Translations under genes and position numbers: made by a program | From: Smithella sp. | GTDB lineage: Bacteria; Desulfobacterota; Syntrophia; Syntrophales; Smithellaceae | Reading direction: 5' to 3' | NCBI GenBank assembly: GCA_030018675.1 | Contig: JASEHT010000004.1 | Coordinates: 1 to 35,934 of the forward strand | Length of the DNA stretch: 35,934 bases | Notes under the pieces: model-generated | What the model was told of the DNA's origin: nothing | Databases searched by the model: none | What the model saw: only the letters and a program-made list of their open reading frames with translations | Shown here: positions 19,861 through 31,640 of the stretch, piece by piece | How positions within the stretch are numbered: the first letter of the stretch is position 1 | How the letters are laid out: every line of letters starts with the position of its first letter

Positions 19861-20877
19861 CTAAAATTGTTTCAGAAATCTGATGTCGTTTTCGAAAAAG
19901 AGCCGGATATCTGAAATTCCGTATTTCAGCATGGCGATACGCTCCAACCCGAGACCGAATGCGAAACCGGAATATTTTTCAGAATCGTAATTTACGTTTT
20001 TAAAAACGGCGGGATCAACCATGCCGGAGCCCAGTATTTCCAACCAGCCGCTTTGACCGCAGACTCTGCATCCCTTACCGCCACACATGACACAGCGAAT
20101 ATCAACTTCAGCCGATGGCTCCGTAAAGGGAAAAAAACTGGGACGAAAGCGCAGAACGGTACTTTCACCGAAGATTTTTTTTAAAAAAGAGGCGAGAATT
20201 CCTTTCAGATCTCCGAAGTTCACGCCCTGATCAACCAGAAGACCTTCTATCTGATGAAACATCGGCGTGTGCGACACGTCGGAATCACGCCTGTAAACTT
20301 TTCCCGGAGATAAAATTCTTAAAGGCGGTTGGATTTTTTCCATAATTCTGACCTGGACAGGCGAGGTATGCGTACGCAAGACAACATTATCTTCAATGTA
20401 AAAAGTGTCCTGCATATCCCGTGCGGGATGATCCTGGGGAATATTCAAAGCTTCGAAATTGTAGTAATCCAGTTCTATTTCGGGACCTTCAACAATGGAA
20501 AACCCATATGACGCAAAGATGGAACAGATTTCCTGGCGTACCTGGATGACGGGATGTATTCTTCCACATTTAATCGCGTTACCCGGCAGTGTCACGTCAA
20601 TTTTATCATTGAACAAATCCTGTTGATTCTTCAGGTCGGCATGCTTTTGAAGCGCTTCGTCAATATTTGCATTCAAGGAGTTCTTCAGTTCATTGCAAAG
20701 CTTTCCGAATAAAGGTTTTTCGTCATCGGAAACCTTTGCAATATTCCTTAGAATTCCTGTTAAAAGACCTTTTCTGCCGAGATATTTTGTTCTGATATTT
20801 TGAAATTGATCTAGAGTTTTCGCATCCTTTAATTCGGCCAGAGCATCCTTTCCCAGTTGTTGAAGCTCGTTAATCAT
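19861..20877 (-). CDS. pheS: Phenylalanyl-tRNA synthetase alpha subunit
   Basis: PARDMQDTFYI, LRTHTSPVQVRIM, GKVYRRDSDVSHTPMFHQIEG, FAFGLGLERIAMLKYGI. Confidence 0.98.
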   Translation of the reverse strand: MINELQQLGKDALAELKDAKTLDQFQNIRTKYLGRKGLLTGILRNIAKVSDDEKPLFGKLCNELKNSLNANIDEALQKHADLKNQQDLFNDKIDVTLPGNAIKCGRIHPVIQVRQEICSIFASYGFSIVEGPEIELDYYNFEALNIPQDHPARDMQDTFYIEDNVVLRTHTSPVQVRIMEKIQPPLRILSPGKVYRRDSDVSHTPMFHQIEGLLVDQGVNFGDLKGILASFLKKIFGESTVLRFRPSFFPFTEPSAEVDIRCVMCGGKGCRVCGQSGWLEILGSGMVDPAVFKNVNYDSEKYSGFAFGLGLERIAMLKYGISDIRLFFENDIRFLKQF

Positions 20878-31139: not shown

Positions 31140-31640
31140 TTACAAACCTGCCATTAATTTTACTTTCATGATTTTCTTTTGGACGTTGATTTCTTTGATG
31201 ACCTCAGCGATAGCGGGAATAAGAATTTCCCGTTTCCCTTTGCAAACATAAACATCATTGCTTCCCGTGGGAAAGATGGATTCTATTTTTCCTATGTGCT
31301 CACCTTCTTCAGTATAAACATCAATCCCGATAACATCATCGCAGTAATACTCGCCTTCCGGCAGTATTTCCAAAATATCTCTCTGCAGATATACTTTACG
31401 ACCGATGAAACCGCGGGCTGTCTCAACATCGGATATTTTTTCCAATTGAACAAAGAACATTTTGCCGGACCGATCAATTTTTCTGATGTTGAAGGGCTTT
31501 TTATTTCCGGAAGCCTCTTCAACATACAGACATTGAATTTTATTAAAAATACCCGCGGTCTCCAGGCATGACCGCACTTTCATACATCCCTGGAGACCGC
31601 GGGTATTTACGATCTCTCCGACTTCCAAGAGATCCATCAT
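31140..31640 (-). CDS. rimM: 16S rRNA processing protein
   Basis: [22 protein letters not shown]-barrel [41 protein letters not shown]; operon position between khpA and trmD. Confidence 0.96.
31547..31608. repeat. Perfect 20-nt inverted repeat (long hairpin) inside rimM
   Basis: AAATACCCGCGGTCTCCAGG (31547-31566) and CCTGGAGACCGCGGGTATTT (31589-31608) are exact reverse complements separated by 22 nt. Confidence 0.98.

Follow-up and report, generated by a model that had tools for sequence, protein, structure and literature searches.

The rimM gene of a Smithella sp. draft genome (GenBank assembly GCA_030018675.1) carries a perfect 20-bp inverted repeat that was probably formed by quasipalindrome correction, that is, by template switching in replication. 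A probability of roughly 0.7 is assigned to this reading, under which effects of the hairpin on translation would be unselected or mild. The DNA analyzed, hereafter the window, is the whole stretch of 35,934 nucleotides from contig JASEHT010000004.1. On its minus strand, the open reading frame 31140–31640 encodes RimM, with the Pfam RimM N-terminal and PRC domains both above cut-off, in the gene order rpsP, khpA, rimM, trmD, a SAM-dependent RNA methyltransferase gene, and rplS.

Both 20-nt arms lie inside the 5′ coding region of rimM. The sequence AAATACCCGCGGTCTCCAGG (31547–31566) is the exact reverse complement of CCTGGAGACCGCGGGTATTT (31589–31608), with 20/20 bases complementary around a 22-nt loop; towards the loop, one mismatch is followed by 3 further pairs (24 nt, 96%). 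The original prediction had described such a repeat about 32 nt downstream of the rimM start and had assigned NTRGLQG to the upstream arm of the mRNA and LETAGIF to the other, all of which is borne out. The distance of 32 nt is counted from the first ATG; it is 29 nt from the second ATG, to which the start of rimM in relatives is equivalent. The elements discussed below are the following:

31140..31640, minus strand: rimM, 166 codons; its second ATG, at 31637, corresponds to the start in relatives
31589..31608, minus strand: mRNA 5′ arm of the 20-bp hairpin, encoding N-T-R-G-L-Q-G; mostly the older arm, with codon 12 AAT (Asn)
31567..31588, minus strand: hairpin loop, 22 nt
31547..31566, minus strand: mRNA 3′ arm of the 20-bp hairpin, encoding C-L-E-T-A-G-I-F; apparently mostly derived, with codons 29–30 GCG GGT
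31592..31598, minus strand: 5′ side of the seed, GGTCTCC; pre-existing and found in most genus members
31557..31563, minus strand: 3′ side of the seed, GGAGACC; pre-existing and found whole or in part in most genus members
31611..31634, minus strand: small start-proximal hairpin, GATCTCTT...GGAGAGATC, whose pairing is kept across the genus by synonymous codon choice

A chance origin of the 20-bp stem is excluded. Folded as RNA, 31520–31640 (121 nt) reaches −58.4 kcal/mol; shuffled versions average −28.9 (z −8.7), and 0/200 were as low. Contig stretches of the same genome were scanned for perfect stems with N runs excluded and loops of up to 80 nt; in these 341,565 unmasked bases the rimM stem is the longest, followed by stems of 17 bp (outside open reading frames of at least 80 codons) and 16 bp. 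Within such frames, stems do not exceed 12 bp, barring the rimM stem and one of 16 bp, and in a first-order Markov sequence matched in size the longest stem, a single one, was 12 bp. When the codons of relatives were recombined at random in 2 million draws, the perfect run never exceeded 15 and the pairs never exceeded 18/20. The claim that the hairpin is far beyond chance thus holds against fold shuffles, the Markov control, the genome scan, and codon recombination alike.

Three other inverted repeats were recorded. At the edge of contig C107 of the same genome (stretch L101, 36–71), a 16-bp perfect stem with a 4-nt loop falls in an 82-codon open frame, and it may represent a terminator instead of coding sequence. 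In the rimM region of a family member (L032, 655–725), a 28-bp perfect inverted repeat (TGTGATTCCCGCGAAGGCGGGAATCCAG) outside frames of at least 80 codons looks like a dispersed repeat or a terminator. Within the window, positions 20676–20758 hold a 33-nt inverted repeat that is 76% complementary, with a 17-nt loop.

The rimM comparison comprised 15 other members of the genus (a sixteenth, incomplete, was left out), a total of 41 from the family, and 26 from the order. The full 20-bp stem occurs in none of these genes. The homologous arms of the 15 genus members form 6–14 of 20 Watson–Crick pairs, with a longest perfect run of 9; the maximum among the 41 family members is the same, and order members form 3–10 pairs. 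Since the first 33 codons (99 columns) align without gaps across relatives, the hairpin arose through substitution and not through insertion. A mobile hairpin or repeat insertion was considered and rejected on the same gapless alignment and because the stem sequence is found only once in its genome. Searches of the genus and the family for closer relatives gave RimM proteins no nearer than 57–59% identity, and a scan of genome contigs returned one distant Bacilli locus.

These comparisons do not support a conserved RNA element made from the 20-bp arms, one of the options listed in the original prediction, which had proposed a nucleotide alignment of relatives to separate a functional RNA from a template switch. 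Restriction of the full stem to one genome favors the switch, and the lack of covariation between the arms speaks against the RNA. Pairing of arms within a genome equals pairing of arms mixed between genomes (9.02 versus 8.91 in the family; 10.20 versus 10.20 in the genus). The arms therefore do not covary, and nothing points to a common structural constraint that would hold the full stem together; this argues against a maintained stem, although the core, being near-invariant, says little either way. The 20-bp helix is paired in 56.5% of cells and the start-proximal helix in 91.7%. When the named structure was tested, both pair-counting measures fell within the shuffles. Slightly above them were the covariation score (equaled in 18/500 shuffles) and the percentage paired (equaled in 8/500), in counts that include the start-proximal helix. 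Rfam gave only chance-level matches, far below gathering scores. Judged from these sequences, the 20-bp hairpin looks like a lineage-specific feature and not a conserved regulatory element.

What the relatives do share is the core. GGTCTCC and GGAGACC pair wholly or partly in most genus members, and pairs 12–17 form in 9–15 of the 15. The core is encoded by G-L-x on one side and L-E-T on the other; the protein motifs TRGL.G and LET, together with codon choice, yield complementary codons and hence an older imperfect palindrome in rimM. Against this background, the two arms differ in their history, as judged by column-by-column comparison of living sequences. The 5′ arms of relatives form 14–17 of 20 pairs with the 3′ arm of the present genome, whereas its 5′ arm forms only 8–16 of 20 with their 3′ arms, an asymmetry which indicates that most of the change took place on the 3′ arm. 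This arm carries most of the new matching bases, at pairs 7–9. At pairs 7 and 8, where 14/15 and 11/15 genus members have A, the present genome has G, and codons 29–30 (GCG GGT) match the opposite arm and not the relatives; codon 30 as GGT (Gly) is absent from every other family member. The smallest change required on this arm is perhaps 2–3 adjacent bases (e.g., GCA AGC in relatives versus GCG GGT), which comes near to ordinary substitution. At pair 4 the direction is reversed, the derived base being on the 5′ arm: the 3′-arm base is the usual one, and codon 12, Lys or Arg in 15/15 genus relatives, has gone from AAA (Lys) to AAT (Asn), giving K12N.

The proposed mechanism starts from the imperfect inverted repeat that rimM already contained, with the core GGTCTCC...GGAGACC. 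The nascent strand probably folded back on this core, so that one arm served as template for the other, and synthesis would then have returned to the original template. Codons 29–30 of the 3′ arm, and perhaps neighboring bases, would thereby have been rewritten to complement the 5′ arm. The reading frame remained open, and the part of RimM affected is variable, so that the change was presumably tolerated. A single template switch accounts for the 3′ arm if the Asn codon 12 came first; otherwise two events are needed. Given that the K12N pair calls for either an ordinary substitution beforehand or another round of correction, the history may have had two steps. We infer the switch itself, its occurrence as a single event, and the tolerance of its product. 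Among the explanations that the original prediction had listed without preference (an RNA element, a template switch, a cruciform or protein-binding site, and an assembly or amplification chimera), template switching is nonetheless the best supported: the stem is present in one genome only, an imperfect palindrome is older, the substitution left no gap, and the new matching lies mostly on one arm. It is possible that selection has acted on the hairpin after its origin. At 32 nt past the ATG, the stem should not cover the initiating ribosome, and it could slow elongation as a putative effect.

A second, smaller structure precedes the long stem. Directly behind the rimM start codon, GATCTCTT and GGAGAGATC base-pair with each other, and the codons involved are conserved in an unusual way: in the genus, the Leu codon is CTC in 14/15 members (background 12%) and the Glu codon is GAG in 15/15 (background 22%), although covariation of this hairpin is slight and, the genomes being related, the figures are non-independent tests. 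When 488 sites from five genes of the operon were scored for constraint, ranks 1, 3, 5, 10, and 29 went to rimM codons in the start-proximal hairpin and the core. Compared with synonymous shuffles, the opening 33 nt of rimM show more structure in 15/15 genus relatives (mean z −2.33, the strongest effect among 30 segments), opposite to the starts of rpsP and trmD, which are less structured than their shuffles (+0.68 and +0.88). The start structure fades outside the genus: it is weaker in the family's other genera, and order-wide it is absent (mean z −0.27). On these patterns, the start-proximal hairpin is a candidate translational control element of rimM. As a separate observation, the trmD start codon (window 31137) is GTG in 12/12 genus genomes compared.

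Four complementary segments in 31557–31634 (minus strand) can pair either as 1:2 together with 3:4 or as 2:3, which is the geometry of an attenuator; the RNAalifold prediction is 1:2/3:4 with the genus sequences and 2:3 at family level. A broader proposal can be built on this arrangement, namely that the first 80 nt of rimM hold an undescribed, family-wide RNA control element whose four segments (codons 3–5, 8–10, 14–17, and 26–28) can adopt either pairing and are maintained by the unusual CTC, GAG, and GGT codons. In the present species, the 20-bp extension would have locked 3:4 and shifted the balance permanently. This proposal is regarded as improbable. Somewhat better placed, though still unlikely, is the idea that the hairpin itself was selected, on top of a weaker family-wide fold, because it adjusts RimM and TrmD within the rpsP-khpA-rimM-trmD operon, either by slowing ribosomes or through an effect on mRNA decay. 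The great stability of the fold, the structured start of the gene, and the synonymous constraint in the core and in the start-proximal hairpin all speak for selection. However, that constraint falls on the start-proximal hairpin and the 7-bp core and not on the added pairs, the full stem is limited to one genome with arms that do not covary, and a stem 32 nt into a gene lies past the usual initiation footprint.

The remaining explanations concern how the palindrome could have been completed or misread, and all are considered very unlikely, in the order given. Stepwise ordinary substitution would have started from seven core pairs and several AT pairs that pre-exist by coding, needing perhaps 5–8 extra matches on a long branch (0.285 substitutions per site); yet the column-based probability that all 13 non-core pairs match is about 4e-8 (genus columns), and no relative has a run longer than 9. 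A chimera of assembly or amplification is less probable again: the genome is a fragmented draft of 398 contigs, but the site is internal to a 35.9-kb contig, homology runs without gaps through both arms, the frame is open, and the conserved motif is intact. Chimeras usually produce long inverted duplications. The least credible of all is an intragenic, terminator-like attenuator composed of the GC-rich stem and the T-rich stretch TATTTTTAAT that comes after it, active when rimM is untranslated. A 22-nt loop on a 20-bp stem is unusual for a terminator, and relatives have no such T-tract directly behind the core. A terminator scan found 10 sites where 5.2 were expected and reported here only a short 7-pair stem, the 22-nt loop being beyond its limits.

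If template switching did complete the palindrome, rimM offers a clean natural example, from a bacterium, of a short palindrome that coding constraint leaves behind and replication can then complete. Such a completion would alter adjacent amino acids at once and equip a ribosomal-protein operon with a strong hairpin, no selection for it being needed; a striking perfect hairpin is by itself no evidence of regulation. Distinct from it, the start-proximal hairpin can be tested in its own right as a candidate for translational control of rimM and is the part most worth following up. Regulation of the rimM operon was called unknown in a 2024 review (PMC10931766). Literature searches on how rimM is regulated within the trmD operon turned up no primary report in open access. 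Folding of the E. coli rimM/trmD mRNA was reportedly treated by Wikstrom and Bjork, which is taken here as a lead and not as evidence.

Compared with known cases, the rimM hairpin looks like the scar of an already described mutation process. Its short loop, older imperfect repeat, perfection in one lineage, and amino-acid changes nearby agree with the anatomy of cases in yeast genes (PMC8604942) and E. coli reporters (PMC7202029). In coding genes of S. cerevisiae, template switches give new perfect arms of 7–16 bp together with amino-acid changes (PMC8604942). The homogenization of arms seen there resembles rimM in that an imperfect intragenic repeat becomes a longer perfect one, in a lineage-specific manner and with replacements of neighboring amino acids. 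The yeast events, however, were placed between near-identical strains, whereas the nearest rimM has less than 60% protein identity, and the 20-bp arm of rimM exceeds the yeast maximum of 16 bp (PMC8604942). Quasipalindrome-associated template-switch mutation was likewise followed with lacZ reporters in E. coli, where, as in rimM, a bacterial imperfect palindrome becomes perfect within a protein gene; that event was observed experimentally in an engineered 4-bp frameshift reporter, while the one in rimM is deduced by comparison (PMC7202029). Template switches have also been proposed to create RNA stems, with a perfect stem obtained by copying one side from the other as would apply here, but those cases are RNA genes with a functional stem, and rimM is a protein gene in which nothing indicates maintenance of the full stem (PMC8794818). 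Finally, the mitochondria of Nematomorpha resemble rimM in having perfect inverted repeats in open-frame protein genes; their palindromes are numerous and up to 284 bp long, in contrast to the single 20-bp case of the present genome (PMC6649704).
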